64,000 nt of DNA from Trebouxia sp. TZW2008 (lineage: Eukaryota; Chlorophyta; Trebouxiophyceae; Trebouxiales; Trebouxiaceae): the NCBI GenBank assembly GCA_002118135.1, contig BDIU01000201.1, forward strand, positions 372,001 through 436,000. Direction: 5' to 3'. A model generated the notes under the pieces. That model made no database searches. It saw only the letters and a program-made list of their open reading frames with translations, and had not been told where the DNA came from. The stretch's first letter is position 1, and the number at the start of each line of letters is the position of its first letter. Position numbers and translations under genes: made by a program. This document shows, in pieces, positions 7,267 to 53,797 of this stretch.

Positions 7267-8393
7267 TGCTCGTTTTGGGTCACATATGCTCGAGCCCTAA
7301 TCTCTTCTTTTGATTGCCATGCAATCTGTCAGGGAAAGTGCAATGCTTGTTTCACAGCTTCATGTATGGCAATTCCTATTATAGCTAGTGCCAATACGTC
7401 TGGTCTTTTGCAGTGTGTAGGAATCTTAGCAGTGATGCAACAGACCTGACTGAACGACTGCGATTTTGATTTTACTAGCTGTGGGCTGCAACAAGCTGCA
7501 ACCAGCGGAAGTATCCAGGCAGTGTGATTGGTCTTGTATTGGGTTGTGCTGGTCAGGACTAGTTTACTCTGCATTGCTTAAGCTTATGAGGGGTGCTACA
7601 GAAGGTTGTGTCATGATCAGTTCTTGCTGGCAACACAACGCTACTGCAACACATACCTCACATCCCATGTCACCGGCCTGTTGGGTCATTGTCACAAACA
7701 AAGTGGCGTGTTTTGAGTGCAAACTTTGACGTGCAGGCGCTGCAATGTAAAGGAATGTGTTCGCTGAGCACTCCCGAGTACAATATTTTCGATACTCCTT
7801 TGTGTCCTATGACAACGCCAGCCATGAAAGCATCAATGTTTTTTGCAGACCTACTGTCAGCACGACTGTTATGCAATGTTGTCACAACTGCCCGACTTAG
7901 ATGTTGCTTGTGTCACATTTAATAATACCTGAGAGAAGTGCAACCTGTATGGCCGTGTGTGCGATCAAATCAACTGCCCAATTGGATGTCTACCATTTTT
8001 TTCTGGGTGCCCCTGTATCTAAATGCAGAAGCATGGTGTCTGAGCACAGCCGCGTAATATGCAAAGCAATCAACGACTCAGCCAAGGTTTAGCAAACTCC
8101 TCTTTCCTCAATGCAATGATCCTACCAAAGTGGCTGAGAAACCTCAAGCGGATCCTGCACCTTGGATACCTAAATCAAGTCAGGCACCATTCATGCCCTA
8201 CAACCCTTCAATCTCAAAAGCAACATTAGTAAAGGACGTGCAGCAGCAATGCTGCAGTGTCCCGTGCTGCTGGCAGGTGTCTGCTATTTACTGCAATGAA
8301 GTGCAGTGCAGTGCATTGCATGGAGGCAATTCCAGCCCTTACTCTCATGGACACAGAGATGCATGACTGACTGGCCAGTACTAGGCCCAGCAT
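7267..8393. other. Intergenic region, no assigned gene
   Basis: No exon can be placed here with confidence. A plus-strand open stretch at about 8127-8230 has protein-like composition (A-P-W-I-P-K-S-S-Q-A-P-F-M-P-Y), and a minus-strand stretch at about 7720-7880 is open too. Neither has a convincing set of splice sites or neighbours. The large minus-strand gene to the right may extend its 3' exons or UTR into this interval. Confidence 0.4.
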
Positions 8394-8890
8394 ACTAGCA
8401 TGCTGCACAGCTGACCATGCAATTCTGTCCTGGACTGCCTCTACTGATAGATGCTCCTCTCATGACGCCTGACGGCATAGACTTTTGTTTCTTCCTCTCA
8501 AGTCCGGGAGTGTCGAAAAGCTGGGTCCTCCCAGTATACAAGCATGCTACACAAACTGCTGTACAGTCCTGGAATGTCGGATTGCTCAGTGTCCCCAGCA
8601 CACTAGCATGCTGCAAAGCTTATCATACAGTCCTGGAGAGTCTGGATCTTTGTCTGGCAATGCTTGTGCCTCCTCTTCTGACACATTCAACAGAACTCTT
8701 GCCAGCTGATTCAGCAGCATGTCCCTCTGCTTCCTGTCATGCTGCTGCCACACTGGCTGAATGGAACCTGCACAGCAGTGTGCCGACACACTCAGCAGAA
8801 ATTCTTGACAGCTGGATCAGCAGCAGACCCCTTTGCTTTTTGTCATTATGTTTGCATATTAACTGAATTGAGCCTGCACAGCATGCTGCC
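8389..8890 (-). repeat. Local duplications of C-terminal exon ends
   Basis: The acceptor-end block (G-S-I-Q-P-V-W-Q-Q-H-D-R-K-Q-R) has a diverged copy about 105 bp upstream (G-S-I-Q-L-I-C-K-H-N-D-K-K-Q-R). The exon-end block L-C-S-M-L-V-C-W recurs at about 8640, 8560 and 8400 (minus strand). Both blocks include splice junction sequence. Confidence 0.6.
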
Positions 8891-12100: not shown

Positions 12101-15100
12101 AGATCGCTGTAGAACACACAGCATAGTCCCTGCTTGCTCTGAGCACAGTGATCCACATCTGATGCATTGATGGCGTTAGGCGGCATGCAAGATGAGTTGC
12201 TGTGAGGAACCATGTCGCTGTAGTTCTGCATATCTATGTGTTGGTTGACTGTATATGCTGAGGAGGGATGCTGTTGTTGCCTGCAATGTTGATAAGTACG
12301 CTGGCTGGCAAAGCATTTTGGGCTGCCCATGATTGCAGATCCTGCGGTCACAACACACACTGGGCATCTTTTGCCCATGCATGCCAATGAGCTCCTGACG
12401 TTCATGAGCAGACCTATGTGCTGTTTGACTGTGTATGCTGGGGAGGGGTTCCCTGACTTGCCCGCAATGTTGACAAGTACGCTGGCTGGTAGAGCATTTT
12501 GGACTTCCCATGATCGAAGATCCTGCAATCATAGCCAGCATTGACATAAGCACCTGTGTCAATTGCATGCCAGGAAGTCTGTGATGCTCAGCAAAGTATG
12601 TGCAGATCTATGTGCGAGTCGACTTTGTATGCTTAGGAGGGATCTCCTAACTGCCTGCAATGTTGACAAGTACTCTTGCGGGCAGAGCATTCTGGGCAGC
12701 TCACAGCTGAAGATCCTGCAGTCCACAATACATACTGACATCAACATCTTGGGAATCCATCAGCAGAATGATACAGACATGCACTGATGCTGTGATTCTG
12801 GAGTGTGAGAAAAGGTAAAATGTTGCCCAGGCTTAGACATACCATTGTGACCATTGGCGTCAGCAGGTGCGTCAGATCCATGCCAGAGGGTTGCTGATGC
12901 TCAGGAAGGTATGTGCAAAAGTGCAAGCCCTGTACTGTTTGCCTTTGCTGACTTTGGTGAATGCTGAAGCACACAGATATCACTTGACTGAAAACCATGT
13001 GGCAAGCCTCCAAATAGATGCCTTTGCTTTCCAACATACATTGGGCGCCAGCTACGCTTTGGTCTCTGTCCAAATGCAATACCATGGCCTGCAGTCTGCT
13101 TTTCGTTAGGAGGACCAGAACTTTGACCTCTTGATATCAAGACGCTTGCGGTGAGGACATTTTATTGCAAGCATTATGCACTGGGCACCAATGCCTGTTT
13201 GGCTGGCTAAAGCATGTAAAATTACTCTGTCTCTCTCTATCCTGACCCAAAAAGCACTTCTGAGTAGGAGCATGCTGGTATAAATACAAACTGTTGGGAA
13301 CAACTGCAGTCATTACATCAAGAAACACTGTACCTGATTGTCGGGTTGGGGACTGTATAGGCAAGCTGGTCTTGCAGGTTCCACTGCTGCGCTTGCTACT
13401 GGCCTTGTGTCTGGCAGGCTTTGTGCAGCTGCATGGCAACAGCTACTCAATCAGTCCTGCTGCAGTTCAGTGTTGTTGCTGACAGCAACAATTGCTCAAT
13501 CAGTTTTGCTGCGAGTCACTTTGGTCATGGAGTGGCGCACATCTTATGCACAAACCACTTCAGCCTCAGCTACATGCTGTAAGCAGCAGCAATTTGTAGC
13601 GAGCTGTCATGCTCCTGATAGATGCATTCACAGCACAGAAGTGCTCTCCTACTCTCTCAAGGAGCAATGCCTTGAGCATGTTGCATCACAACCCCACCAT
13701 CTAATGCACTCAGTGACAGGCTGCTGCAAGCTACACATACTACACCTATCGCTTGAGGCTCTCCCAGTTTGCTGGGATTGACCCTACAGCTTGGACAATG
13801 CATTATCTTGCATTGGGTTGCACCCACGTAGCGCTTGTGCCGGCACGTGCAGCAGTCATTCCTATTGTACAGCCGTTATGTATACATATACCACTGCTAT
13901 ATCCAGTGGTTACTATCATGAGTCTCTTGCCTGTAGTGAGCACCCAGGCAGTGATGTTGGGGTTGAGGCACAGATTGCCTGGGTTTACTTGTTTGCCAGG
14001 GTCGCTGCCCTTGAAGAAGGCTGTGCTGGTGGTGCTGTCGTACACAAAACCCTGGCAAATGCTGCCATTGCTGGCCATGGAGTCACAGATCTCAGCCAGG
14101 GTACTTGGCATTTCACTGGCCTGCATTTATCACAACACACAGACGTAGGTGAGTAGTGATCGGTGTAATTCATCTTGACATGTTGTGTGGAGCCACAGAT
14201 CTGAGCTAGTGCGCCTGGCAAATGCTGCTGTTACTGGCCATGGAGTCACAGATCTCAGCCAGCGTGCTTGGCACTTCACTGGCCCGCAGTGATCAGCAGA
14301 CATAGACAACACCGAGGCAGCAGACAGGGTGAAGTATGATCTGCAGCTCTTTGTGGGTTTGATTCATGATGACACATCAAGTGGAGTCACAGATATGAGT
14401 CAGGATGCTTGGCACTTCACGGGCTTACAGCAATGAGACTACACAGCTGTTTTTCAAACAGCACATGAGTTTGACCATCGTATGCAGCCCCATGAGGCGT
14501 GATCATGGCAGTGATTCATCTGACATGCGGCGAGAAGATGCAGACTTGAGCTGGTGGCTGTAGCAGTTCAATGTGCAAGCATGATGTACAGCATGCATGA
14601 TCTGGCAGCAACCTTTCTGCACATGTCAGGGTACACAGACAATGCTGCAGACTCAGATCCACAGACTCAGATCAACAGAACCAAAAGTTGCAGTATTTGC
14701 AGCGTCCATTGTACTTGACGTGCTGCACGCTGATGTATTACCCTGTTGCATATCGTAATGCTGCAGATACATGCTTGCGCCACAAGCTGCTATGTCAAGC
14801 AGGGCTGCTTGGAAAAAGGTGCTGCGAGCATGACTCACTTGCAGCCGCAACAGTGCAGCAGCAGTCTTTGTTTTTGGCTGTGCAGGCATTCAATTGCTGT
14901 TGCAGGCTTGTGCCCAGAGTCAGTCATGTGAAGTTGATGAAGCAGCTTTCCAGCGTTGACGTCGTCATTGAGGTCAACCATGAACACAGCGCTGGCTTAT
15001 ACCTGATTGTATAGGCATGTTTCACCTGGGTACCAGCTACAGTGTAGCAGCAGTCTTTGTTTTGGTTGTGCAGGCATTTGCTTGCTGTTACAGACTGGTG

Positions 15101-18100
15101 TCCAGAGTCAGTCCTGTGAAGTTGGCAAAACAGCTGCCTGTCGTTGGTGTTATGTCATTGTGGTTTTGCAGGTCAGTAAAGGTGTACATTGTGTAAAACT
15201 GCGGGCATGTCTCACCTGTGCTATAGTGTGGCAGCAGTCTTTATTCTTGCTTGTGCAGGCATTTACTTGCTGTTACAGACTGGTGTCCAGGGTTAGTCCT
15301 GTGAAGGTGGCGAAACAGCTGCCCAGCGTTGGTCTCATGTCATTGTACTATTGCAGGTCAGCAAAGGTGTACATGGTGTAATTTGACAGGCTTGTCTCAC
15401 CTGTGCACCAGACATAGTGTAGCAGCAGTCTTTGTTCCTGGCCGTGCAGGCATTCACTTGCTGTTGCAGACTGGTGTCCAAAGACAGGCCTGTGAAGTTG
15501 GTGAAGCAGCTGCCCAATGTTGGCGTCATGTCATTGTGCTATTGCAGGTCAGCAAAGGTGTACATGGTGTAATTTGACAGGCATGTCTCACCTGTGCACC
15601 AGACATAGTGTAGCAGCAATCTTTGTTCCTGGCCGTGCAGGCATTCACTTGCTGTTGCAGACTGGCGTCCAAAGACAGGCCTGTGAAGTTGGTGAAGCAG
15701 CTGCCCAATGTTGGCGTCATGTCATTGTGGTTTTGCAGGTCAGCAAAGGTGTACATTGTGTAGTTTGGTAGTGTCTGGCTAAATTGTGGAGCCTTCCCTG
15801 TCACATATGAGCCATCCTGCATGACAAAAGTGCAACCATACATGCAGATTGATAGGACTACTTCAAGGTACATTCCTGACATGCATGTGCAAAACAGAAA
15901 AGAGACAGACAAATGTGTTGAGGCAACTTTAAGCAAGCCCCGCTGCTTGGAAGGAGTCTGAGACAGATGCCAATTGACACATGCTGCACATTGCTTGCTT
16001 AAAAAAGCCTTTGGGTGTGCAGACGATTGGATAGCATGCTGACCAAACGCATGCCTTCAAAGCACAGAATCATGCAAACTGTCAGAATGACATTGTTTAG
16101 CAGTAGGTGCATGCGTTGTTTGGACGGAATTAGTCTTTCAGCAAACATTGCCTTTTCACCTGATAGATTGGCTCAGGCTCTGGCATGATGCAGTTGCTGG
16201 CATATGGTGAAGCACTGTTCGCTGGCTCTGCAGCAAAACAGACCCCGGACTGATCACATTGCAGATCAGCTCAAGCAGCACTTGTCATGTAGCCAGATTT
16301 ACTGCTGCCAACATCATATGGTTGTGTCAACCAAGTAACAAGTGGAGCAAAACCAGATCATGTTGCAGAATACACTCTGGCAGGTGTCCCTTTGCAAAGC
16401 CTGGAGCAGACAGCAATTGCTCAAGGCTTGTCTGCGCTGAATGCAGTCATGCACGTCAGAATACGCACGTCAACAACATGCTTTGTTGAGCATTGCTGCA
16501 ACAAGTGCAGACCGTGCTGTGATTGTGCAAAATCACAACTATGCCTGGGAGCAAGGGTGAAGCAAGTTGCTGACAGGCATCGGTTGCTGTATATGCCATG
16601 CACTCACCGTTGGTTTGCAGTGTGCTGTCTGTAAGGGTGATGTTATCCAAGCAGAAGGTGACAGGCGACATTACGCTGACAGGAGGCTGCAAAGCAAAGC
16701 TGGTCACTTGATCCAGGATTGGGATACAGTCCTTGAAAGAGTTCTGAAACAAGCTGGCTGACACTCTGATGTAGCCATTGTCTGTAGTCTGCGACCTCTG
16801 CGACAGTGAGCTGTGACAAATCAAGTGAGTCGCTGGAACAAAGCTGGGTGTAGCTGACTTTGCCGTTGGTTGTGTTCTGATAGCCAAGTGACAGCGTCAA
16901 TTGAGGTGGTGTTGCTGAACTGCCTGCAACATGTTAATTACATAATGCAAATGATCCCAAAGATGAGTTTCATCTCATCACCAGCTGCGCTAGCAATCTC
17001 AGCTTCCTCAGTAGATGGATGCAGGAGCGATGGACTTGTATAAGTCGTGTTGTCATTGTGGTGGCATGTACAATCAAGGCATAAGATAACACTGCATTGT
17101 CCATGCTGCGCGTCAGGTGCACAGCAGAGCTCACAAACAGTGACGATAGTAGGTGTTCCACAAAGATCATGTCAAACGGTTCTGGAAGCAGGCTGTTTCC
17201 AGATATGAATTGCACTAGCTCACCTGTAGTGTTGACTGATTTGATGAAGAATTCCAGGCCTGATGTGTTGCTCAGCAGGAATGGCTGGTACCCAGGCTGG
17301 TCACACTCCCGACAGAAGAAGAACAGCTGCTCCTGCAAAAACCTGAACAATGGTGAGATCAATTTGTCGCAAACTGCACAAAACAAGAACAGCTGCTCCT
17401 GCAGCCCAATGCAAAGTGACATGACACGTTTCATGACTCCTAAGTCTCAGTTCGCAGAGTGCTTCCACCTTGCAATGGCAGCAAGGTTCACCAAGCCTGA
17501 GACTCCAGCACACAGGCTGATGCAACAGGCTTACTTTGGCGCTTTGTAGTGTAAAGCAAGCAACATTGGACACAAAAAGGCCCTGTACAGGCTGTTGTCA
17601 TTGTCTGGACACAGGTGCTGGCACCCAAGTGGTGCAGCCTAGATGATGTTTTACAAGGCAAGAGCTTCACTTTGGCGCTTTTCAGTGTGAAGCAAGCAGC
17701 ATTGGAGGTTGACAGCCCCTGGCCCGGCTGTTGTAGTTGTCTGGATGTCTGATAGCCTCCCACACCCCAGCCTGCCCCTAGGTCATCACCATACACAGCC
17801 TTGCTGACATACCCCGGGTCCAAAGGCACAGGCTGCTTAGTGTCACATGTCACTGGCCTGCATACAGAAGGCATCGACCTGTTGTACTCAAACACGCTGA
17901 TTGGAAGCTGGCAATAGACAGTCATACAAGCTCGACAGCTGAGGAGGACTTGAACTACGCATCATGGTCTTGATGAATATTTGATACAATGACGTGATGG
18001 AGAGGGCCCTGCGTACTGCAAGCAGAATGTGCACAGCAGAATGTCTCAGCACAACCTGAAAGCCAGGTTCATCAAACCATAGTCAGGTTGGGCCAGCTGA

Positions 18101-20600
18101 CCACCCTGACTATCTCAGGGTGGATATCACAGGCTGAGTAGCCCAGGTTGAAGTGTGGGATGTCGGTGCAGCAGACATCTGTATATACGCATACATGTGT
18201 GGCGCCGTGGCATCTGCATGCAACAAGCAGAGGAACCGCCACCTGAATGCCAGTTTCATCGAGCCATAGTCAGGGTGGACCAGCGCCTCATACGCTGAGT
18301 TCATGTTTGGACATTGCTGCTGCATGCATCCGTAGGTGTTGTGCAATGGCAGCATGCATAGGGGGCTGCATACCACACGCAGAGAACAGTTTCACCTGAA
18401 TGCAAGGTTCATCAAGCCATAGTCAGGGTGGGCTAGCTTCTCAAAGGCTGAGTAGCCCAGATTGAAGTGTGGAATGTTGGTGCAGCAGGCATCTGTGCTG
18501 CCACTTGAGCAGTGACAGCTGTCTGTCACTTGTACAACAATGGATTGTGCGGGACTCAGCAGACCCTGCAGCATGTTCAGCAATGATTAGAACAAATGGA
18601 GTGCCCGTGATTCGTTTTCGTTTTTCACACTGCCTGATCAGCATGTTGCTCAGTGACTTGAGAACCTGATAGCAAGAAGTCGAAGGTATCATGCTGTGAG
18701 GTGAGCCGCTCAAGTGTATTTCAAACTTTGGTGATGCAACATGCACAACAGTATCTGCCCTTCTACGCTTCTGCTGCATTGCAACAGAGCCACACAGAGG
18801 TCAACAGCAACATACGCTGTGTATAGATTGAGAGCATCATCAGCAGTCAGTGCAAGGTGTGCATGCTGCCAAGTGCAACCTGGTTCACCTCTGAGTCGGA
18901 TGCATTCCAACACTGAGTGTATTGGATTTGGCTGGCATTCAGCACATTTCCAGGGAAGCTGCGGTTATAGCTGTCAAGGGGTGGCCCTGGGGTGATCGTG
19001 GGGAAATTATACACAGGCTCCAATTGGTCTGAAGCAATGACGTAGGGCACAGGCGTGTTGTCTGAGCTGTAGTTGCCAGGAATGATGCCACTGACACAAC
19101 GCAGCTCATAGCACCTGCAACGGACCAGGAGACAAAGCTTGCCAAATTTTTGTATTTACACATGACTTGTTACCATTTTGCTTGATATTGACTGCTTTGC
19201 AGAGCTGGCATTCCTAGCTACATATCACGACATTGATAAGTTACAGCTCATAGCTCCTGCAACAGAGTGGTCAAGTGCTAGCTACATGTGATGCCATTGA
19301 TATCATGATAGAATGTGGCTCATTGCACAAGCATCAGATTGGGGAACAAGTGCGTGACCGCTAGCTATGCATGGTGCCTTTGGCACAATGCAGCTCATAT
19401 ATGGCACAGGCAATGGCTTGAGGGGTCAAATGCTAGCTCTAGGAACAGGTACTGCAGAGACAAATAGCTTGATCAGAGCAATGAGAGAACAGCCAAGCAA
19501 GGTGTATGCATTTTGGCAAGAAGCCTCTTCACTTGAAGCTAGCAGTAATGCACAGCCGTCAAGGCTACGACCAGCACCATTGCAAATCAGTGCAGAAGGC
19601 GCTCATGCACAAACAGCAGCAGGCAGGCACTGCACGCAACACTGGTTTCTACTGTGTTGACAGCTCTGAGATTCTGAGGGCATGCTGAGTCCAGCAGGGA
19701 TCAGGCAAAGCACCTGCCACAGCTTCCAGGATAATCAATATTGCTTGTAGCTGCAGCTGCCAACATATCTGCAGGGACTATGCTGCTCTGGCTTGCACCA
19801 CTGAACAGGCCACAGTCGCCACTTGATGGCGGTGCAAAGTGCCTGCAGCAGTGTGTATTTGCAGGTCAAGCGTGCCTCAAGGATGCTACCGCAGCAATTG
19901 CTTGTCAGTTTGTGCGGCTAGTGTGTCAGAGGAGTTGCCAGAGCTCGATCTGCTGCAGTTTGCCTGTTGCCCCGCTGTGCAGGATGGCAGCCCTGCATCG
20001 TTGACGCAATGCCTTGCATTTGCAGACACTACTGTCTGTAATGAGCACTCTGGTGGGAACTCCGCACAGGATGTGCAGCATTGTATCATCGTGCACATGC
20101 ACACTTAATGACAAGTGCCACGCATCAGTTGCAGCTGCAATGCAACAATATCAGCGCTGTCTGCAGCACCATTTTGCATGATTGCAGCACACAGACGTCT
20201 TAAATAGATGCATATCGCTAGGCTCAATTGGGCAGCATACTTGTCTGAAAAGCTTGCGTTGAAAGAGGCTGGAGGCCCATTGAAACTCGCTCTTCCAATG
20301 GTCCAGCCATCAGCTGCATTGCCAATTGGCAAGTCAATGGCAGTCAGGCGCCTTCTGCCAAACTGCTGAACCACAGGGCCTTCTGTGATGTGTCTGCCAA
20401 CAGTGAGCTGCAGAAACGAGAAAGCCAGCAACAAGGCTGCTTGGCCGGTTGTCCGGCAGGCCCCGGACTTGCGAGAGTGGCCTGCACGCAGCCTGAGTTT
20501 GGGCAGATTGCTTGCGTGATCTTTGCAGCTTCAGCTCAGCCCCGCATCCCGACAGTCGGCTCAAGCAGGAGCAAGTGCAGCCGCGGGGTTCACCTGGCAT
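8394..20600 (-). CDS. Large expansin-like / Cys-rich / PAN-like single-pass membrane protein gene
   Basis: A phase-consistent N-terminal chain runs 20600-20594, 20481-20241, 19842-19714, 19114-18889, 18565-18396, 17857-17671 and 17332-17135. It encodes a signal-peptide-like stretch (A-A-L-L-L-A-F-S-F-L-Q-L), then a double-psi beta-barrel (DPBB) domain. Further exons downstream are recognisable but not all phase-linked: a beta-sandwich-like exon ending F-C-L-D-N-I-T-L (16608 to about 16925), a Cys-rich exon (15816-15592), two PAN/apple-like exons, short Cys exons, a Pro/Ser linker (about 10610-10514), a transmembrane exon (10095-9343) and C-terminal exons to about 8440. Inferred topology: secreted Cys-rich and carbohydrate-interacting modules outside, one helix, a Ser-rich cytosolic tail. 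Two neighbouring genes merged into one model cannot be excluded. Nearly every intron here carries decayed copies of adjacent exon ends. Confidence 0.6.
9343..10095 (-). other. Transmembrane and Ser-rich cytosolic tail exon
   Basis: After a gtgcag acceptor the exon reads S-K-I-K-T, then the helix IYGIVAAAVGATVPALTWLA followed by the stop-transfer-like Y-R-K-D-K. A long Ser/Gln/Asn-rich segment follows. It ends N-D-S-T-N-P before a perfect gtaagt donor at 9342, so the gene continues to the left. The next exon appears to start at 9185 (in phase, T-E-T-I-L-S-R-L-P-A-P-L). Confidence 0.65.
11125..11311 (-). other. PAN/apple-like exon 2
   Basis: The exon reads L-P-E-T-L-A-T-I-C-N-N-I, then V-C-Q-G-F-V-Y-D-H-R-Q-N-V-A-F-F-K-G and L-C-S-S-P-N-T-T-A-W-L, with a gtaaca donor. 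It is clearly homologous to exon 14120-13931 (same C-Q-G-F-V-Y-D and A-F-F-K-G cores). This points to an old module duplication as well as the recent local ones. Confidence 0.65.
12262..12745 (-). repeat. Three copies of a Cys-rich mini-exon
   Basis: Three units at a spacing of about 170-200 bp each show a cag or gcag acceptor, about 55 nt of open frame and a cag-type end. They read S-S-A-V-S-C-P-E-C-S-A-R-K-S-T-C-Q-H-C, then S-S-I-M-G-S-P-K-C-S-T-S-Q-R-T-C-Q-H-C, then a version with T-Y-Q-H-C. All three are open; which are spliced is unknown. Confidence 0.6.
13931..14120 (-). other. PAN/apple-like exon 1
   Basis: This exon encodes S-T-L-A-E-I-C-D-S-M-A, then I-C-Q-G-F-V-Y-D-S-T-T-S-T-A-F-F-K-G and L-C-L-N-P-N-I-T-A-W. 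The C-x-G-F-x-Y-D...A-F-F-K-G core resembles PAN/apple modules, which bind protein or carbohydrate. A second exon at 11311-11125 matches it along its length. The 3' boundary would use a GC donor (ACAG, then gcaaga). Confidence 0.65.
14060..14445 (-). repeat. Repeated acceptor end of the first PAN-like exon
   Basis: The block around the acceptor and first codons of exon 14120-13931 (gcag, GCCAGTGAAATGCCA, then L-A-E-I-C-D-S) recurs upstream in the preceding intron near 14190-14220, 14240-14300 and 14385-14440, with increasing mismatch. Each copy retains the start of the exon, not its end. Confidence 0.7.
14840..15816 (-). repeat. Five-copy exon array, period about 185-191 bp
   Basis: Exon 15816-15592 encodes T-P-T-L-G-S-C-F-T-N-F-T-G-L-S-L and ends C-C-Y-T-M-S-G-A-Q before gtgaga. 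Downstream copies have their donor ends near 15401, 15216, 15026 and about 14836. Copy 2 (15538-15401) is fully open for 46 codons, starts after a tag acceptor created by one base change and ends in the same phase, so it could be a working exon. Copy 3 carries a stop where copies 1 and 2 read Gln (S-L-Q to S-L-stop). Copies 4 and 5 are more degraded. Decay thus increases along the array. Confidence 0.85.
17310..17410 (-). repeat. Duplicated acceptor end of exon 17332-17135
   Basis: The block cag plus GAGCAGCTGTTCTT, which is the branch side and first codons of this exon, occurs twice with a period of about 67 nt (acceptors near 17400 and 17333). The upstream copy loses the reading frame soon after. 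The copy thus spans the intron/exon junction. Confidence 0.7.
17535..17720 (-). repeat. Duplicated 3' end of the post-DPBB exon
   Basis: The end of exon 17857-17671 (S-N-A-A-C-F-T-L-K-S-A-K, then gtgaag) is followed about 135 nt downstream by a copy reading S-N-V-A-C-F-T-L-Q-S-A-K with its flanking sequence. The duplicated block includes the donor region. Confidence 0.7.
18063..18570 (-). repeat. Three copies of the DPBB 3' exon, two decayed
   Basis: The functional exon (18565-18396) ends H-P-D-Y-G-L-M-N-L-A-F-R before a gtgaaa donor. A second copy at about 18330-18238 still reads H-P-D-Y-G-S-M-K-L-A-F-R and keeps a gt donor, but its 5' half has diverged. A third at about 18190-18063 keeps C-C-T-D-I-P-H-F-N-L-G-Y-S-A before an internal disruption. 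All three keep the exon end and the following donor. Confidence 0.8.
18396..19842 (-). other. DPBB (expansin-like) domain exons
   Basis: Three exons joined in phase give the expansin-type order. First is G-D-C-G-L-F-S-G, then an acceptor-spanning G-S-C-G-R-C-Y-E-L-R-C, then V-V-Q-V-T-D-S-C-H-C and P-H-F-N-L-G-Y-S-A-F-E-K-L-A. The next exon continues R-P-V-T-C. In expansins the matching signatures are G-x-C-G, C-G-x-C-(Y/F)-x-(V/I)-x-C, T-D-x-C-P and H-F-D-L-S-x-x-A-F. Here the conserved Asp of the H-F-D motif is Asn. The middle exon (19114-18889) adds an unusual loop of about 60 residues between the two halves, with N-glycosylation sequons. What is seen is the motif order; wall-loosening or carbohydrate binding is inference. 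Confidence 0.75.
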
Positions 20601-30277: not shown

Positions 30278-30338
30278 TGCACACATGCATACACGTTGAC
30301 GAGTTTTAGTCAAACAGCTTGGCAAACAGCGTTGCCAG

Positions 30339-41300: not shown

Positions 41301-43769
41301 GCATCATCCCCCGCGCCATCCTCAAGGTCTGCCTCCCCCGCTCCTCTTTCTGCTCCCCCTGACTGCATGCTAGACTTTGAATACGGAATACATGAGCTTT
41401 GCGACACTGACTCTGCACAAGCTTGATCACAGCATGCAGACTGTCAGCAAAATTGTTCTGGTCACGCGACCTTGCAGCTTTCATTTATAGGCTTATCATG
41501 TGTTGATGGGCACAGATTTTGGAGGCTGCCAGCAAGCTGGGGGAGTCAGGGTGGCAGTATAGCATGGAAGCCTCCTTCATTGAGGTATACAATGAGACCC
41601 TGAGGGACCTGCTAGCTGAGGGGCGCACCCCTAGGGAGGCCGGCAAGGTGCTGGACAACAACGCAATCAAGCACCTGGCTGACGGTATGCAAGCATGCTT
41701 GTCATATCAAGTGTGCATGACATTACTGCTCATGCACACTAATTGGTGGCCAGTCCAGCTTGAGGAGTGCATGCTGCGAGGCCAGTGGATGTTGCCGGCA
41801 ATCTGCTCTTATGCATGGGTTTCTACAACCACAATGTGTTGGGCATGTGAGAGATTGGTCGTGAGCATCTATCCTGCACTGCAAGCAGATGTACGATTAC
41901 TGATGCAGATTGATAACCTGTTCCTGTGTTGGCGGCATAGCAGTACCCTTGCAAACATGCTGACTAATCATGCTGCTGCTGCTGTCCTTGCTCATCCACT
42001 GCGACAACAGGTCAAAGGGCTGACAGGATTGCCAAGTGCTCATTAAGTCATTGTTCATGACACACGCAGATGCTGTTGCAAGACGCAACCTGCCTGTAGT
42101 TGCGCATGCAACTGCTGTCACGGCTGTAGTCAGCAGCATGTGCTGGTCTCAGTGTCAGTTTGCAATTGCTGCTGCTGATGACAGGTGGACAGACAGTGGT
42201 GCAAGGCGCCACGCGACTGCCTATTGGGTGTGCCACAGACGCTGACGCTCTGGTGAAGAAGGCGGCAGCGGCCAGGGCTGTTGAGTCCACCGCCATGAAC
42301 GCCGTCTCCTCCCGCAGCCACTCTGTCTTTACGCTGTTCATTACTGGCCAGCATGAGGCCTCAGGGCAGCGGCTGCAGGGAGCCCTCAACCTTGTTGACC
42401 TAGCTGGCAGGTACCATTGTCATCATCATCATCAGCAGCAGCAGCAGCAAAATACCGCAGGATTCAGAGATGCTCTGCATGACTACCAAAAGTCTGTCAC
42501 AATCCTTGTGAAAAGCAGAAGTTCCTGTTTTCTGTGTGGCATCTGTTCAATGAGAGCCATTCACGTGAGCGCAATATCACATGCAAGGCCTGTTTGTCAT
42601 TGTCCAGCCACAGCTTTGGTAATCATCACCAGTCCCTTCATGCAAGAGGACATACAAAGCGTATGGTGAGTGCAGTGAGAGACTAGCGCGGTCTCAGGTG
42701 GAGGGGAAGCATCAGAAAGAGGCCTGCTCCATTAACAAGTCTCTCAGCAGCCTGGGAGATGTCTTCTCAGCTCTAGCTGGCAAGCAGCCACACATTCCCT
42801 ACCGCAACTCCAAGCTCACACACCTTCTACAGGTCAGCCTGATGCTGCATGCAACTTGGATGCCATAAGTCTAGTATTGCTCAGCTTGCTTGCACCTGGC
42901 ATTGCACCTGGTCATGATGTTGAAGGCTTTCTAGCAGCCTTTGTCTGTCCACAACTTACACCCTTGAGGCAAGTGCGTGTGCCTCATGCTTCCACATGTG
43001 GGCATGCTGATGTCCTTCTGAAAGCCGCAGTCATCCTTGTAGACAATGCTTTTGTGGCAAGTGCTTGATGGACTTGCCTGTGCCCACCAGTATGCACAAC
43101 ATGCTCAGCATCAACAGACTTCTCATCGGCTTCTGCATGGTATTTGAGTGCTGCAATGTCGACAGTATTGCAGCATGGGTATCTTTGCAACCTTCTTTAT
43201 ACATACCTCAGATCATCTGTCGATCCTACCAAATGCTGTCTGTAGGTCTGCAGGGGTACAATATCAATTGTGCTGTCAATGCTGTAAAAGTGTGGGTAAG
43301 AATGTATTGTGTATGCTTGCAGCCGTGCTTGGGAGGAGATGGGAAGACGCTCATGTTTGTCAACATCAACTGTGAGCCAGCCTCTGTCAAGGAGACGCTG
43401 TGCTCGCTGCGCTTTGCTGCCAAAGTGAACCAGTGTGAGACTGGAGCCAAAGGTGGCGCTCGCAAGCACATCTCAGAGATGTCCTCTGGCACAGATAGCA
43501 ATGCAACAGACCCCAAAGAGGTATGAATGCGATTGCAGGCTGTCTACAACATGTGCATTTTGCAATGCAGCATGATAGCACTGTCTGCAGCTTTCAGGTT
43601 ACTGCATATGTGCAGTTTAAGTTTGCACTGTTTCAGACATTGCTGCCAAGGTCAACAGAGTTTGCTGTGCCTGTTGCAGATCAGAAGGCAGACGCTAATC
43701 CCGTCCATGAAGCGCAAGGCGACTGCCCTTCCGAGTGCACCAAAGGCTATAAAACCACGCTTGGCATAG
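32317..43769 (+). CDS. Kinesin-14 (C-terminal motor, minus-end-directed)
   Basis: Twenty exons close in phase to 1117 residues: 32317-32816, 32908-33266, 33671-33771, 34602-34751, 35074-35144, 35386-35542, 35960-36046, 36470-36544, 36997-37091, 37364-37496, 38267-38419, 38836-38998, 39524-39681, 40280-40486, 41222-41326, 41516-41684, 42185-42410, 42676-42832, 43323-43520 and 43680-43769. A basic, Ser-rich tail is followed by about 500 residues of coiled coil. The neck-motor junction [14 protein letters not shown] is diagnostic of kinesin-14. The motor shows the P-loop G-Q-T-G-A-G-K-T, switch [10 protein letters not shown] and switch II L-V-D-L-A-G-S-E, then S-L-G-D-V and Y-R-N-S-K-L-T. Expected role: spindle or microtubule bundling by minus-end motility. 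Introns after 35542 and 36544 seem to use GC donors. Several introns hold exon-end copies and one holds a long microsatellite. Confidence 0.95.
33925..34190 (+). repeat. Tetranucleotide microsatellite, (ACTC)n then (CATT)n
   Basis: About 200 bp of near-perfect actc repeats with a few interruptions pass into a catt run near 34140-34180. It lies inside kinesin intron 3. Because the unit is not a multiple of three, all three frames read repetitive Leu/Thr/His/Ser peptides, which should not be taken as a gene. Confidence 0.95.
35470..35700 (+). repeat. Kinesin exon 6 end and near-identical copy
   Basis: The end of exon 6 with the following intron start (about 35485-35575) recurs at about 35595-35700. 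A run of about 80 bp (GGCCCTCAGAGCCCTGCAGG onwards) differs at only a few bases, so the duplication is recent. Both copies end CAATTGCAG followed by gcatgc, a GC-type donor. Confidence 0.9.
36838..36980 (+). repeat. 46-bp tandem repeat, three copies
   Basis: Three almost identical units of acacagcatacatatgctct followed by (g/a)gcaccatggctttgtagaag lie just upstream of the acceptor at 36996, in a kinesin intron. The third copy runs into the exon-side sequence. Confidence 0.9.
37440..37670 (+). repeat. Kinesin exon end ([11 protein letters not shown]) and copy
   Basis: The end of exon 37364-37496 with its gtcaaac donor recurs at about 37608-37665. There, coding bases are conserved (CAGCTGCAACACCTGCAGTG), but the last Gln codon has become a stop (TTGCAG to CTGTAG) and the gt donor remains. 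Confidence 0.85.
39655..39820 (+). repeat. Kinesin neck-exon end and copy
   Basis: The end of exon 39524-39681 (L-V-E-L-R-G-N, then gtgagcc) is repeated at about 39782-39818 with the same donor. If used, the second donor would add sequence just before the neck-motor junction. Confidence 0.75.
40100..40350 (+). repeat. First motor exon and a relic of its start
   Basis: The segment CCTCTGCAGTGGTTTGCCTT at about 40118-40137 and its flanks match the first motor exon at about 40314-40345 (CCTCTGCAGTGGTGTGTCTG). The following CCAGATGGGCTCAG is shared exactly. The relic sits in the intron just upstream and has no reading frame. Confidence 0.75.
41080..41290 (+). repeat. Kinesin P-loop exon and a relic copy
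   Basis: The P-loop exon start with its acceptor (41219-41285) has an upstream relic at about 41082-41145. It keeps the cag acceptor and the stretch ACACCATGCAGGGCAGC, but an internal deletion has removed the sequence encoding part of G-Q-T-G-A-G-K-T and a stop is present. The relic could not supply a working nucleotide-binding loop. Confidence 0.8.
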
Positions 43770-46078: not shown

Positions 46079-49000
46079 TTATAACATGCGCCAAAAGGTC
46101 ACAAAGGCCGCAATCGCAAAGGCAACTGCAAGCACTCCTTGAAGGCTTCTGCACAGTAGCAACCACCTGCAGCAACACTGATCCCTTCAGGACGGGACAC
46201 ACATTACGCTGTTGTAAGCACAAGCATTCATAGCCAAACCCAGACAGTGCAAATCCGCAAGAAATTCAGCTGTCACTGCCATGCATCTGTAGTCCCTGCT
46301 AGCAACATGAAGTGCAGCTGCACAGTGTGGGAGGCTGCATGTAGTCATCTGGTATGATGACAAGATGTGGCAACTCTTACCGCCGTTGTTGCTTAGCCTG
46401 CTGTTGCTGCTGCAGCTCCTGCTGCTGTTGCAAAGCAGCCCTTTCAGCCCGATTGCGCCTGCGCAGGCCCTTGTCTGCCCCTGAGTCTGTCACTGTTGCA
46501 GATGATGCAACAGATCTGCCATGCTCAGGCGTAGGCACGACTGCCTCAGGTGTGTCCTTAGCACTTGGATCATCTGCTTCTGGCTTCTTGCCCTGCATCC
46601 AGCATGATACCAACCTGAACCAGAGCATGGCTAGAGTGTGTGCTCTGCATCCAGTATGATACCAAGCTGAACCAGAACATGGCTAGAATGTGAGCTCTGT
46701 GCCATTAGAATGATGGACTCAAATGCAGTGCAATGGAAGGTATCCTTGATGTTCAGGAAACATGTCAGGCACAATCATTTCATGGACCTGTAGCATCAGA
46801 ACGAAGCTGGTCTGCTCACATAGCATGTCATCTATAGCAGTCCTGAATGCAAAATTTGCTGCTTCATCACAGCTGCTATGGCTCATTATGAGCTCACTTG
46901 ACTGACATGACTCCTCCATGCAACAAGGGAGAAAACAATGTGTGAACTCAATCCTTGCCTTGGCCTCCTTGCAAGCTTGGTCACATGGCAGCAAACGCAA
47001 AGGGGTGGCGTCAGTGTAGCTGTCAATGCCCTCACTTGCCTTCAGCTTTTGCTGCACCTGTAAGCAATGGAAGCTTGCTGCAAATGCATGGCGGTTGTCG
47101 CAACAAAGCACTTGTGTACGGTGTGCACAGCCCTGTCGCGCTCACAGCTGTACACCAGCAAGCTTTGGCTGGACATGCGATCGCTGCACATCACATGTAT
47201 TGTAAGAGTGTGTGTTCACCGTCAAAGTGCAAAACAGAGAAAGCCTTGCAGTCAGACCTGTACGCGATGCCTTGCACAATGTATAAAGACAGGGTCAAAA
47301 ACATTAGGATAATCTGAGGCTGCAAGTGATGGATGCTGAACTTCAGATTCGCTTGCGCAAAGAACCTCAAGCTCTCCCCCAGGTATTGCAGCTGAAACAA
47401 TGCACATACACATACTGGAGTCTTGACTGGCAACTCATCCGTGGACAACAAGCCTGTGTCAACGCACAATTGCTCCTTCTTGCCACCATGTAACATGTCA
47501 ATCCGAGGCCCATCTTCTGTCATGCATTGTCAAGGGTGCATTTGCCACCAACAGTTGATGCACAGCAAAACTGACCTGATGGCATGGCATCTTTGTTTTG
47601 CGGCGGCGGCAAGCGCAGCGCACTGTCACCTCCTCTTCACAGCCCTTGCCGCTGGCAGCGGAGCAGGGCCCTTGGTGGCAAGAGGCCTGGCACACATGGG
47701 GGCACTTGGGCAAGGCCTTGTGACAGGGCTTGCCACAGCACAGCAGCTCGACCCTGTCTGCTGTGGATGCCTGCACGCAGCAGAATGACGTCAAAGCATT
47801 TGTTGCTGATGCTAATTGGGAGGCAGGAGGGGTGGCACACATGTATGCGCTTGAGCAAGGCCTTGTGGCAGGGCTTGCTACAGCACAACAGCTCAATGCT
47901 GTCTGCTGTGATTGCCTGCAGGCAGCATGTATCAAATTGTGATAAGCTTCAGGTGGGCATCTGCAAATGTAGCTCAGACATGCTGTCCAGTCTGTGGACC
48001 TTGCTTCAAGCTTTCTTGAGCTTGCAGAATATCCTGTCAGTGTAAAGTCTGCCAATACTGTACAGGGGCATAGCCTACCTAAGCCTGGCAAGAAAGGCAA
48101 AGCCTGAGGCTGTATGACGCACAAGTCATGCAGAGCCATGTGATAGGTGGCAGTGATCAAGCAAGCTTCCTCTGCAATGTGTAAATGTCACCTGCTGTAG
48201 CTGATTGCACTGCACATATACATGCAAGCAGCCACATTGAGCAGGCCATGACAGTCAACGGTGTCCAGACGTCACCTGATGCAGCTGCTTGCACGGCATA
48301 GATACATGCGAGCAGCCAGAAGGCCATGACAGCCAACAGTGTCCAGACGTCCATCTGCTGCAGCTGCTTGCACGGCATAGATACCAGGGAGCGGCCACAA
48401 TTCTTGAACATGACAGCCAATGATGTCAGAGTTTCACCTGCTGCTGCTGATTGCAATGCACAGATACAAAAAAGCGATCACAACTCTTGGTCGTGACAGC
48501 CAATGATGTCAATTTTCACCTGCTGCAGCTACTTGCACTGCACAGATACAAGGGAGCGGCCCCAAAACTTGGCCATGACAGCCAATGATATCAGAATTTC
48601 ACCTGCTGCAGCTGATTGCACTGCACAGGTACATGCAAGCAGCCACATTGAGCAGGCAATGACAGTCAGAAGGGTCAGCATGTGAAGTGCTGCAGCTCAT
48701 TGCATTGCACACATGCAAGGCAGCATCAGAAGGTCACCTGCTGTAGCTGATTGCACTGCACAGATACAAGGGAGCGGCCACAACGGCAAGCCTCCTGCCT
48801 CTCCTGTGTGCATGCAGGGCAAGGCCCTGGATGGCAGGGCTGAGGGCAGGCATGCTCACAGCCCCTAGGTTTCTGGCAAGGCTGCGTGCATTGCTCACAG
48901 GACGCTGTCTTGTCTTTGCCATCACCTGTACCGCCAGGCACTGATCTCTGATATATTGAGCTGCACACAAGCTCAACAAGAGAATGCGCAAACAGGCTTA

Positions 49001-52000
49001 GCTCAAGTATGTTCAACAGCCTCCACACAGGCGCAGTCAAAGTTGATGGAAGCTTGCAAGGACAACAGCAGATGCTAAAGCAACATACTAAACATCATTT
49101 GACATTGAATGATTCAGTTCTATTGCGCTGTGCTGCCCTAGTGCATGCACCTCTCCGCATCTTTGAACACCAAACTGAGCACCCAACACTGCGGCGTGCT
49201 CGTTGCGCAGTACTGACGTGCAGCAACCATCAAGGCCACGATGTGAATACACATGCAAAGACTCAGAAACTTTGCCCACTCCAGCTGAGTGTACAGCATG
49301 CTGTACGTCGGCAGCAACAATGCAATATGCATTCAAATGAGAAGTGCAACTGAACTATAATGATTGTGTGCACACGCCTGCCTTTCATTGCTAGTGCATC
49401 AGTGTGTGCTTGCCTGGAAGGGCATGACAAGTTTTGCTACAAGTATGGTTGCCACAAGACAGGGGCTGTCCACAAGCACCCCCACAGCTGAAGGGGGCTG
49501 CTTTACAGCAGGGCAGGGGCTGAGTGTTGTGGCCCCCCAAACATGTAGTGGATATGGGGGCCTGACAAGAGGGGCATTCTGTCAGAAAGCCTTCCTGTCC
49601 CTTCACAACTGCTTCTGCCACCTGCAGACAGGGCAGAGATCTCTTGTCACCTGTGCTGGCTGTCATGAAAAAGGATTTCCTTAGCAAAGTGATGTTGACT
49701 TGTAACCCACTGACAGACATATGGCATGTGTCGACATAGACATGGCATATGGCATATGGCATATGACATTGCAATTTCTGACTCTGATGAATACATAGAC
49801 GTTGACACTGTGTGGCGCATGTACCAGCCTTCTTGACTGGCAAAAGCATGTGAAATTCTTTTGCTTCTTGCCACCTGGGCAGAAGAAGACAAGCCAGTGG
49901 TGTCTTCCTGAGCAGACCCATTCTCCAACAGGTGTGTAGCTGTAAAAGTAGCAGAGACTGGGGGTTTGGGAGGGGTGAAGGGAGGGATGGCGGGGGGCGA
50001 TTTGTCATGGCAGCTGGCTGCAGAACAGGCGTGGCCACAGGGCAAGGGAGTGCCACAAAACTGGCTGCAAGGCGGACAGGGACCCCAATGACACCTGCAC
50101 TCACTCACAACCCCACATCAGCTACATGACAACATCTGCATTGACACCTTGACCACAGGCAATCTAGGCTGTTTGACAATAGTACACATCTGCACCAAAG
50201 ACAAGTCATAGTGTATGTCATCAACTAGCTGACATGAGGGTGTCAGCTGGCCACAGGGCTAGCGAATGCCACAGAAGTGTGTGCAAGGCAGACAGGCGCC
50301 CCCAATGACACCTGCAATGCACACCTGCAAGTTTGTGGCATACGCAGTGACTTGTCTAACCATGCTGATTGAAGATGTATTGCCGATGGTCTGTAGCCGT
50401 GATGCAAACAACTTGCTGATTGTGGAACAAAGTGAGCCTGAGTCTGTGCTGCAGAGCCTTACTGCTCAAGCATGATCCTGCGAACAGACATATCAACCCA
50501 GATTTGTGCACATTGCCCTTGATCTTGCAGATGCAGCAATCACGTCAGACCCGCACCTGTGAGGCGGTCTTGAGTCTGCATGCCTGCAAGTGGGCGGCAC
50601 AGGGCACATTTCGTGGCACTTAGGGGCAACAGCTTTGCCCTCAGACCCACACGGCAGCTTTGAGCTGGTAGAGTCAAAGACACAAAAGACAGTTGCAGTC
50701 ATGACAACACGAAGGCTTTGTGTTCAGTACCTGTGAGGCGGTCTCGCATCTGCATGCCTGCAAGTGGGCCGCACAGGGCACATTTGCTGGCACTTAGGGG
50801 CAACAGCTTTGCCCTCAGAACCACAGGGCAGCTTATAGCTGGTATGGCCACAGGCACAGGAGACAGTAGCAGTGAGAGGGCAGGGCAGGCAGGGGCCACT
50901 GTGGCAAGGGGCAGGACACTTGTGGTTGCCGCAACGCAACCTTCTGCCGCATGGCAGATCACATGGGGGACAGTCACCGTCACAGCAGCGGCGGCGGCAC
51001 TGGTGACGGCCACAGGCCTTCATGTTGCTGCACTTCTTCTCACACCTGCACCACATTTAACTGATGAGTTGTGGTTGTTCAGAAAACATGACTTTAGCAT
51101 TAATTGCAACCACAGGCCTTGGACTAGGTCTCATGGGGGCCAGTCACCGTCACAGCAGCGACGATGGCATGGTGACTGCACAGGCCTTCATGTTGCAGCA
51201 CTTCTTCTCACACCTGCAAAAAATGCTGCTTTTTCAAACACAGACCCCAAATTCAAACAAAAGTAGTAAACAACATGTTTGATGGATTTGCTTTGCAACA
51301 TCTACATGCATTCAATGCTGCAAGTCCCAGTCATAAATCTTTACAGCATTACATCCATCAACAAGCCACAATTGCAATACAATCAGAACCCCTGTCAATA
51401 CATTGCATACACAGTGTCACAACAGCGAGCGCAAATCTGCTACATTGCTGCAGCACAGACTCCAGCAGCTATGCATCCAAGCATCACAGCAGGCATTGGA
51501 CGCTGACCAACGCAGTCCCCTGCTTCAGTCTGCACCTAGCAGGGTAATAGCCGCTTCATGTTCAATTAGCAAAATTCGCATTACACATGACCTGAGGGTC
51601 TCATGACACTGCACCACTTTGTGAGTTTTGCCGCAGGCGCATTCCTTGTCAACCAGGACTCTGCAGACGGTGCTGCAAGGAATGTGGTGCAACACAGCAG
51701 TCATGAAGAGAGAATTCCATGGCATAGAGTTGCAGCTGCGGTAGCCCCAGAACCAATAACAAGCAAAGGATGGTGCATTACCTGAGGGTCTCATGGCACT
51801 GCACCACTTTGTGGGTTTTGCCGCAGGCACATTCCTTGTCTACCAGGGCTCTGCAGACGGTGGTGCAGGGGCCATGGTGACAACGCTCTGCACAGTGGTG
51901 GCGGCCACAGGGTAGCAGCTTGTCACAAGTGGCGCCGCAAGGGGCGGCTTCCTCATCACATGTCAGGTTTTCATACGCCACCTACAACATAGACATGCAG

Positions 52001-53797
52001 CTTCTCTGAGTGCACCCATGCCATAGACATGCAGCTGATGTAAGCCACACAGCTGCTCAACCGCAAGTGTGTCACATTGTTTGATTGCATGTGCAAAACA
52101 CTATGTGCAAAATGTTTTGTGAAATTCAAAGCAGTCAATGCACATAGAGACAGACAGGGAAGATGCCATATGTGCAGGGTAGATAACAGCCCTCCTCAAG
52201 ATGCTCAAGCTCGTACAGACTGTATAAATTGTGGCTAGCAGGGCAGCACACCTTCCCACAAGGGCAAAGCCTGGGCCCTTCCATGGGGCACCCCTCACAC
52301 AGGCCCCCATGACACACCCTCTCACACCTGTGCCTTCCACACGGCAGCGCCTTGCCACAGACGCGGTCACAATGAAAGTCGCGCTGACTGCAAGGCAGAG
52401 TCTGGGTCTCTGCCCCACACTGACAGCTGACTGTGGCTGAGAGGGTACAGGCTGGGCAATTGCCTGTGTGACACTTGTGGGGGCATCTGTGTCCACAGGG
52501 TAAGCGCTTGCCACACAGCTTGCCACAGGAGAAGCTAGACTGGCTGCATCGCACTGGCTTGCTGAGTTTGCCACAGTGGCAGGCAGACACAATCTGCAGG
52601 CACCCAAAGCATGTGTGTCGGGGTCGGAGAATTGTTCATGGAGCCATTGTGTTAGAGAGATGTGCGCATATGCCTGTATGGCACTTTTTGAGCGCATCTG
52701 TGACTGCATGGCAAGCGCTTGCCACACAGCTTGCCACAGCAGCTGATTGACTGATGCCAAACATATTGTGCTGTGTTTGCAGTAAGCTAACAGTCAGGCT
52801 GAGGAAGAGCATATACCTGTCTCGGACAAGGCGGGCAAGGGCCAGGATGGCATAACAGCACACATGTGTGCCCACATCCAGATGCCAACTCCTTGCCACA
52901 GATGTCACCACAGGTGTGGGGGGCTAGCCAGGGGTCCACAGGGGGATCTTGCTGCTTGCCACAGAAACAGCGGTACTCTGTTGGAACCTCTGATGCCTCA
53001 TAAGCTTTACGACACTTTGGGCAAGCCCAAGAAGCTTGTTGAGGTTTGCTATCCCTGCAGAGGTTAGAGAAGTGTTTGTGACATGCCGTCATGTGACTTG
53101 TGTGCAGCTGGTCTGCAGGCCATGCATACAAGCTGTTGTAGTTGCTCATGTGGTTGTTTTCGATAAAGCTCAACTGCAGATGCCGCTACACTAGAACTAA
53201 GTCTAAAGTGCAAAAACTGCTGATGCTGATGGGTCCCATGCTGAGTACCCGTACATTGAAAAATTGCAGAACAAGTGCAAGCAGCAAACCTGTATGTGCA
53301 CAGGCAATGGCCTGCTACCCACATACCTGCTGCTGTCTACTGAGGCCTTGTAAGCATTAGCTGCAATCTGCTGACGGCTCCAGGCTTGCACACAAAGCAG
53401 GTGCAGCACGCAGCAGCAGCCTCGTGAGCAATGCCAGATCGCATCGTCACTGCCCATGGTGTCCAGACATATGAGGCATACTGCAGCACTGCTCTGAGCG
53501 CTGTCGAGCTGCTCCCGCAAACGCTGAAACGTGTCTGTGAAGTCGTTGCTAGTGCTGTCTGGAGCATCATCTGCAGGACAACTGCAGCACAATGTATCAT
53601 CTTGATGGGGCAAATGCAGGCAGACGTCCAGCGTTGCATAACATGCGCTATTGTCTAAACGTATGCATGTACCGGCAACCAATAGTCCTTCAGGTGCAGC
53701 AAAGCTGACCTGCAAATTCAACAGCATAGTTGCTGAGTATGCGAGCAGCATAAGAAGGAAGAGGCGTCTTGGGATGAGACGCTGGGACAGCAGGCAT
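46079..53797 (-). CDS. NFXL1: NF-X1-type zinc-finger protein with C-terminal membrane anchor (NFXL1-like)
   Basis: Thirteen exons close in phase to 878 residues: 53797-53710, 53570-53327, 53054-52817, 52593-52252, 51981-51782, 51045-50731, 50094-49875, 49621-49414, 48925-48738, 47770-47576, 47057-46959, 46592-46381 and 46166-46079. Order: RING/PHD-like [28 protein letters not shown], then about ten NF-X1 fingers of the type C-G-H-x-C-x-x-x-C-H-x-G-P-C. Then come [11 protein letters not shown], a Gln-rich coiled segment and a final helix [12 protein letters not shown]. Architecture and length match animal NFXL1. The RING-like region suggests ubiquitin-ligase activity and the tail anchors the protein in a membrane; both are inference. 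Introns after 49414 and 46959 have GC donors. Almost every intron contains copies of an adjacent exon end. Confidence 0.94.
46590..46700 (-). repeat. 52-bp duplication at the acceptor of NFXL1 exon 12
   Basis: The block spanning the acceptor and preceding polypyrimidine side (ctgcatccagcatgatacca on the plus strand) is repeated 52 bp away with few changes. Both copies keep the ctgcat acceptor context; only the one at 46592 leads into the open frame. Confidence 0.8.
47695..47940 (-). repeat. Duplicated start of NFXL1 exon 10
   Basis: The acceptor end of exon 47770-47576 (ctgcag then GCATCCACAGCAGACAGG) has a diverged copy at about 47845-47935 in the upstream intron. The copy keeps the Cys-rich C-C-x-x-x-x-C-x-K-A-L composition in broken frames. 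Confidence 0.75.
48180..48775 (-). repeat. Eight-copy, about 82-bp minisatellite built on a splice donor
   Basis: The 3' end of NFXL1 exon 9 (Q-C-N-Q-L-Q-Q, then gtgacc) is followed downstream by seven further copies. The conserved CAG-gt junctions fall near 48189, 48273, 48352, 48435, 48517, 48600 and a shorter copy near 48684, next to the genuine one at 48737. Each unit contains the exon end (TGCAGTGCAATCAGCTGCAG) and part of the intron (a tgtcatggc-type core). At least six of the eight keep a CAG-GTGA donor. Confidence 0.9.
50235..50320 (-). repeat. Decayed copy of NFXL1 exon 7 start
   Basis: The segment matches the acceptor and first codons of exon 50094-49875 (gtgtcattgggg then the [10 protein letters not shown] region). 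It lies in the upstream intron with substitutions that break the frame. Confidence 0.7.
50530..50650 (-). repeat. Decayed copy of NFXL1 exon 6 end
   Basis: Downstream of exon 51045-50731 a copy reads [17 protein letters not shown] and [13 protein letters not shown], with a donor-like gt. It is still open over about 45 codons but has no partner acceptor in frame that I could see. Confidence 0.8.
51100..51220 (-). repeat. Decayed copy of NFXL1 exon 6 start
   Basis: Upstream of exon 51045-50731, the acceptor and first codons (cctgcag then gtgtgagaagaagtgc) are repeated about 150 bp away with a short deletion. Exon 6 is therefore flanked by relics of its own two ends. Confidence 0.8.
51590..51880 (-). 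repeat. NFXL1 exon 5 end and its copy
   Basis: The last part of exon 51981-51782 ([20 protein letters not shown]) recurs about 190 bp downstream at 51591-51690 almost unchanged. The Cys/His ligands are still encoded, so this copy is recent. Confidence 0.85.
52670..52748 (-). repeat. Decayed copy of part of NFXL1 exon 4
   Basis: The plus-strand stretch gcaagcgcttgccacacagc, with flanks, matches the exon 4 region that encodes [13 protein letters not shown]. It sits in the intron just upstream of that exon, with a broken frame. Confidence 0.75.

Follow-up and report, generated by a model that had tools for sequence, protein, structure and literature searches.

Exon-end copies in the introns of Trebouxia sp. 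TZW2008 are probably residues of short local duplications placed roughly uniformly

Background

In a 64,000-nucleotide stretch of the genome of Trebouxia sp. TZW2008 (G000:C193:372001-436000; hereafter "the window"), introns carry copies of the ends of neighboring exons, often together with the splice site. The question that this locus raises is whether duplication there is directed at splice junctions, or whether the pattern is what short duplications leave behind in a gene-dense, intron-rich genome. The evidence below favors the second answer, to which we assign a probability of about 0.82: the copies are the residue of short local direct duplications placed roughly uniformly, of which the junction-crossing ones were neutralized by splicing and have since decayed.

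We compared the window with 25 further stretches of the 68.5-Mb, 527-contig genome (314 kb and 26 loci in all). The stretches were picked blind to their content: 20 of 10 kb came from contig C13 at fixed 30-kb steps, and five from C80 and C272. Genes were predicted by an unsupervised hidden Markov gene finder trained on the sampled DNA itself, which called 549 introns with a median length of 293 bp, exons with a median of 123 bp and 3.6 junctions per kb. Predicted donors read CAG/GT (the slash marks the splice site), or GC in 109 of 547 (~20%), and acceptors follow a strong TGCAG/G consensus. For comparison, the Asterochloris genome paper gives 9 introns per gene, genes of 4240 bp and mRNAs of 1400 bp. 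In the kinesin gene of the window, 19 of 23 predicted exons are collinear with the ortholog P0162; of the four false calls, two are exon copies that the ortholog does not have, so exon copies are a trap for gene finders. Predicted exons of the expansin-like gene agree roughly with matches to P0001. NFXL1 was poorly modeled, and there homologs and reading by eye were used. A scan of the window with Rfam (gathering cut-offs) and for tRNAs found nothing.

Results

Abundance and form of the duplications

Local direct duplications are abundant. The window aligned to itself (E ≤ 1e-3) yields 40 plus-strand matches, all within 3 kb, that form 24 clusters; there are no minus-strand matches, and none in an order-2 Markov-resampled copy. 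Across the 26 loci we found 247 direct-repeat matches of at least 40 bits, 245 of them no more than 1 kb apart, and five inverted ones; a stricter threshold applied to 21 loci gave 203 direct and four inverted matches, with none in resampled sequence. The 247 direct matches group into 127 clusters, with a median copy length of 97 bp and a median spacing of 145 bp (best match per cluster). Cluster density is ~0.4 per kb overall and varies from 0 to 1.1 per kb among loci, and the 0.38 of the window is ordinary. Detectable local duplicates make up 11.2% of the sampled bases, and 132 of the 549 predicted introns hold at least 30 bp of duplicate sequence. The median intron with copies is 434 bp long and the median intron without them 273 bp, a difference of about one unit.

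Best-match identity lies between 70% and 95% in 122 of the 127 clusters, which makes it unlikely that the copies arose by duplicate assembly of the same reads; the original prediction had named assembly errors as a possible refutation. Only seven clusters reach 90% identity. Because young copies are so rare, the continuing generator of exons and introns that had been proposed is not shown by these data; collapse during assembly may account for part of the shortage.

Splice junctions and chance placement

The duplications at exon ends are real but, contrary to the original claim, do not always include a splice junction. Of the 127 clusters, 75 span a junction, 14 pair exon with non-exon sequence, six lie only in exons and 32 contain no exon. 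Within the window, 17 of 24 clusters contain a predicted junction (13.2 ± 2.1 when the same shapes are relocated at random), and four more pair exon with non-exon sequence. The 51586/51776 pair is intronic in the gene model but includes NFXL1 exon sequence by homology, so that exon sequence is involved in 22 of the 24.

Plain relocation ignores both the purging of harmful duplications and detection bias, and it gives each relocated pair two chances at a junction; for these reasons we set it aside as the sole null in favor of forward simulation. Duplications were placed uniformly, units lying only in exons were discarded, exons were conserved and the remainder was left to decay. When the simulated sequence was passed through the same BLAST search and gene finder as the data, 47.4 of 80 two-copy pairs spanned a junction; the observed number is 48. 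A second full-pipeline run gave 43.5 after matching for identity and 40.8 after matching for identity and length. Since uniform duplication comes this near to the observed fraction, targeting of junctions is not required: spanning is roughly at the level of chance, with a modest excess at most. Split by identity class, the spanning fractions are 15/30, 33/49 and 16/30, with relocation expectations of 19.4, 24.5 and 13.9.

Which splice site is used

Where homology allows the functional exon to be recognized, it is nearly always the outer of the two copies. We collected the window matches of at least 43 bits in the kinesin, expansin-like and NFXL1 ranges, together with one CCS1 gene-model exon. 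Of these 24 matches, 20 (in 15 clusters) include an anchored exon and four do not. The functional exon is the outer copy, sharing the junction, in 18 of the 20 (13 of 15 clusters); the CCS1 case rests on the gene model and the rest on homology. The remaining two matches are interior to an exon, with the copy on the acceptor side and the junction not included. The part of the original prediction in which copies that keep a splice site are removed harmlessly is thus supported: the outer site is predicted to be used, the copy to be spliced out and the protein to remain unchanged.

The stretches first described as a coiled-coil gene and a kinesin-14 gene are a single gene (32383-43520, plus strand) that is collinear with P0162, a 1092-aa kinesin of Trebouxia sp. 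C0010, and 69% identical to it, which reduces the five unrelated genes originally counted. The database name of P0162, "Nucleolar protein 58", looks wrong. The features of this gene are:

35386-35542, plus strand: functional kinesin-14 exon, the duplicated part being its 3' end with donor (copy A, 35473-35575); it matches P0162 residues 368-419, and the next residues match 35954-36046
35593-35701, plus strand: intronic copy of the end and donor of exon 35386-35542, 88% identical; the segment occurs once in the ortholog
37596-37703, plus strand: intronic copy of exon end 37435-37496 with donor and intron start, 80% (self-match, ortholog)
39774-39818, plus strand: intronic copy of exon end 39645-39681 with donor, 85%; ortholog residues 701-707 are single
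40093-40150, plus strand: intronic upstream copy of part of exon 40280-40486, with an in-frame stop (tblastn IC*VWSS...)
41054-41134, plus strand: intronic upstream copy of the acceptor and start of exon 41222-41326, 77% (self-match, ortholog)
36838-36977, plus strand: 47-bp intronic unit in three copies, no exon, a counter-example to constant spanning (self-match)
37742-37898, plus strand: duplicate pair wholly in an intron, no exon, a second counter-example (self-match)

The pair at 35473-35701 had been described as near-identical; it exists, at 88% identity. The 36838-36977 minisatellite, its three copies at least 94% identical, is among the most similar repeats of the window. A TCAC/TCAT tetranucleotide repeat in a kinesin intron (33943-34180) has an open frame (THSL...) and was falsely called an exon.

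The other three genes lie on the minus strand. The expansin-like gene shares 53% identity with protein P0001 of Trebouxia sp. C0010; of two NFXL1 pieces, one shares 75% with P0143 (Trebouxia sp. C0006) and the other 84% with P0136. Their copies are:

14847-15576, minus strand: array of four 185-191-bp units downstream of expansin-like exon 15592-15816, each a copy of the exon end with donor; in-frame stop in all four, P0001 residues 425-484 match repeatedly
14214-14307, minus strand: upstream copy of the acceptor and start of expansin-like exon 13931-14120, 86%, with a further copy at 14382-14446 (self-match, homology)
17522-17609, minus strand: downstream copy of the end of expansin-like exon 17671-17857 with donor, 77% (self-match, homology)
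18054-18300, minus strand: the end of expansin-like exon 18396-18565 with donor, copied twice downstream (self-match, homology)
22702-22875, minus strand: upstream copy of the acceptor and part of predicted CCS1 exon 22493-22665, 80%; gene-model exon, outside the best Pfam ResB stretch
50248-50316, minus strand: upstream copy of the acceptor and start of the NFXL1 exon beginning at about 50094, 85%, with a frameshifting indel (self-match, homology)
50555-50699, minus strand: E', downstream copy of NFXL1 exon end 50729-50873, a candidate cassette exon; 36 open codons by eye, CAG acceptor-like start, donor
51126-51218, minus strand: upstream copy of the acceptor and start of NFXL1 exon 50729-51047, with two 1-bp deletions (self-match, homology)
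51586-51680, minus strand: D', downstream copy of NFXL1 exon end 51776-51870 with donor, 92%, a candidate cassette exon; 27 in-frame codons by eye
52663-52753, minus strand: upstream copy of the interior of NFXL1 exon 52252-52596, 79% (self-match, homology)

The stretch 48184-48783 is an array of ~83-bp units with splice-like TGCAG and CAG/GTG motifs on the minus strand, in which an early gene model called repeated 18-bp exons.

Decay of the exon copies

Taken together, the exon copies behave as dead sequence, though individual exceptions are possible. We tallied codon positions in 71 exon-containing pairs, leaving out clusters with more than three matches or fewer than 36 coding bases. Differences at positions 1, 2 and 3 number 293, 238 and 442 of 973. 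The third-position share, 45%, compares with our own estimates of ~44% for one dead and one functional copy and at least 75% for two functional copies, and frameshifts account for 82 of the 96 coding-column indels; the third-position bias and frame preservation expected of functional exon pairs are therefore absent from the pool. A stop or frameshift is present in 22 of 34 copies from pairs in which only one copy was called an exon. Among uncalled copies, the donor is intact in 54 of 62 (43.8 predicted from flank identity, ~52 by our own estimate with one copy free to change) and the acceptor in 44 of 57 (39.1 and ~46), and we saw no sign there that copied splice sites are purged.

These figures bear on the possibility that many copies are alternative or mutually exclusive exons maintained by selection. 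Candidates are D' and E' of NFXL1 (27 and 36 codons): read by eye, each preserves frame and phase as well as the two splice signals, and a hand count puts 10 of 15 differences at third positions. A duplicated exon pair at another locus (5232/5454, within L022:5232-5570) is a possible true exon duplication: third positions account for 10 of its 13 coding differences, and its coding columns are free of indels. Set against them are the pooled codon pattern and frameshifts, which fit dead copies, the stops in the expansin-like array, and the NFXL1 homologs, where exon D and its copy D' match the same single stretch of residues. We consider it very unlikely that many of the copies are functional exons.

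Introns from duplicated AG/GY sites

Two copies of an AG/GY site could also become the donor and acceptor of a new intron, a route the original prediction had raised in its AGGT form. By flank identity, the donor flank is copied at the acceptor flank of the same intron in one of 520 introns. By aligned copies, with the donor copy lying against the acceptor, one of 549 qualified; judged from neighboring offsets, chance alone gives ~0.15 per offset, or ~0.75 over the five accepted offsets. Elsewhere the similarity of donor to acceptor flanks is at the shuffled level. The lone candidate, at 7227-7407 of L028 in an ALMT/FUSC-like gene, has CTGCAG/GC at both ends in aligned copies, and Pfam matches of the predicted protein run across the splice or up to it; by eye, however, the outer donor also leaves an open frame, and the intron is an ambiguous candidate only. 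Intron gain of this kind is not supported as a general route, and as the explanation of the copies it is highly improbable.

Discussion

A chain of simple steps would account for these observations. Many short local direct duplications, mostly at a spacing of ~80-250 bp, would have arisen across a gene-dense, intron-rich genome with roughly uniform placement. With exons as short as these (median 123 bp), a unit reaching over an exon end would usually take in the junction. A duplication wholly within an exon would change the protein and tend to be lost by selection. A duplication across a donor or acceptor would be tolerated: the spliceosome would take the outer site, the added copy would become part of the intron, and the mRNA would stay as before. 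Conservation would then hold the functional exon in place, whereas the added copy and its splice site would decay neutrally; for that reason exon-derived copies would stay recognizable longer than intron-intron copies. At the level of DNA, the presumed mechanism is end-joining or slippage that produced tandem duplicates, with decay and indels afterwards. Selection is the presumed filter, and the splicing itself is predicted from sequence.

Several observations weigh against this account. When the same shapes are relocated at random, 64.2 ± 5.3 of the 127 clusters take in a junction, which does not bear out the original expectation that random duplications would often fall wholly within introns or exons; the observed 75 exceed that figure mildly (4 of 200 relocations reach 75). 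An excess is also seen for two-copy pairs (48 of 80; 34.7 ± 4.2 by relocation) and for clusters of at least 87% identity (11 of 18; 6.7 ± 1.8). Forward simulation with the true annotation, with no re-annotation by the gene finder, spans in 37.6 of 80, and later truth-annotated tandem runs expect 46-52% where 60% is observed. Wholly non-exonic pairs are too few (18 of 80; 29-37 simulated). Duplicates cover 0.18 of the final 20 exon bases ahead of donors, compared with ~0.10-0.12 within introns, and the match extends no more than 20 bp into the intron in 22 of 40 one-junction pairs, compared with 10.6 ± 2.5 under uniform placement. By gene model alone, over all loci, the outer copy is the functional one in 78 of 119. 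The two copies often stand apart as well: in two-copy pairs of at least 82% identity the gap exceeds 30 bp in 24 of 34 and is 10 bp or less in three, and the spacer resembles a flank, as expected for a decayed tandem unit, in 21 of 62 pairs with gaps of at least 20 bp. Copying to a short distance may have operated instead, although a comparable spread of lengths and spacings arises in simulation when tandem units undergo decay with heavier indels.

How much of the exon bias decay can explain depends on the simulation. Overall duplicate coverage is 11.2% in exons and 11.9% in introns, with ~15% just past acceptors; in the 40 one-junction pairs, 68% of the match is exon, compared with 51% expected. 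With small indels the simulated match length nearly equals the spacing, unlike the data, and heavier indels come closer. If neutral rates are equal, the bias is not reproduced by tandem simulation with heavier indels (exon share.57-.58, short intron reach.31-.32, no exon.41). When introns diverge twice as fast, the values (.67,.47 and.26) are close to the data. We ran the age range in three settings; with young copies rare, as they are in the data (ages 0.12-0.35), the simulation falls somewhat short (exon share.61, short reach.41 against.55, no exon.29 against.225). Heavier indels with few young copies approach the match lengths, the identities and part of the exon bias. A modest exon excess is thus partly unexplained, and there may be a real exon preference.

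Such a preference would be expected if exons or splice junctions were genuine targets of duplication, as they might be through R-loops, breakage at exon ends or a process templated by RNA. The scarcity of wholly non-exonic pairs, the short intron extensions of junction-spanning matches, the coverage bump on the donor side and the relocation excess among two-copy pairs and the most similar class all speak for targeting. Against it, spanning is near that of the full-pipeline uniform simulation, the bias shrinks if the copies are old and their intron parts decay on both sides, and none of 11 displayed pairs joins two exons as spliced RNA would. On balance we regard targeting as unlikely. A bolder extension holds that copying biased toward exons or junctions has filled adjacent introns with unusually many spliceable exon decoys, and that some few of them (NFXL1 D' and E', the L028 intron) are becoming new exons or introns; this, too, strikes us as unlikely.

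The implication of near-uniform placement is that a striking association with splice junctions arises mostly from gene architecture, purging and detection bias, which gives a concrete null for future scans. The 11.2% duplicate coverage makes Trebouxia a good genome in which to measure the frequency of intron lengthening by junction-crossing duplications and of their rare creation of exons or introns.

Comparison with known systems

A literature search, limited to the leading matches and with subscription journals mostly outside it, did not turn up this pattern for Trebouxia. The main text of the 2024 Trebouxia genome paper uses none of the words intron, tandem, splice and duplication, and the 2025 A48 paper has intron and splice once each, both in its references. 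Coccomyxa as a published precedent was not borne out by passages of PMC3446292.

Junction-crossing duplication accompanied by splicing is a known kind of event. Small intragenic duplications have reportedly added exons or introns elsewhere, whereas the Trebouxia copies are mostly dead exon fragments within introns. They resemble that work, as it is mentioned in PMC3443670 and PMC4974935, in that some small duplications carry splice sites or whole introns. According to PMC3443670, tandem duplication is a recognized route of intron gain. For AGGT tandem duplication, with ATP2A1 as an example (PMC3443670 and PMC4974935), the likeness is that duplicated AG/GY sites are present in Trebouxia too, but the signature of a new intron occurs in 1 of 549 introns, about the chance level. 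A close parallel is the tandem duplication across an intron boundary in potato RdRp (Ma, Lan & Niu 2016, PMC4974935): there, too, the duplicated stretch runs over a junction between intron and exon, and splicing takes out copied sequence as intron. In potato RdRp, however, a new intron arose through a cryptic exonic donor, whereas in Trebouxia the old outer site would normally be used, an existing intron is lengthened, and the cases are many.

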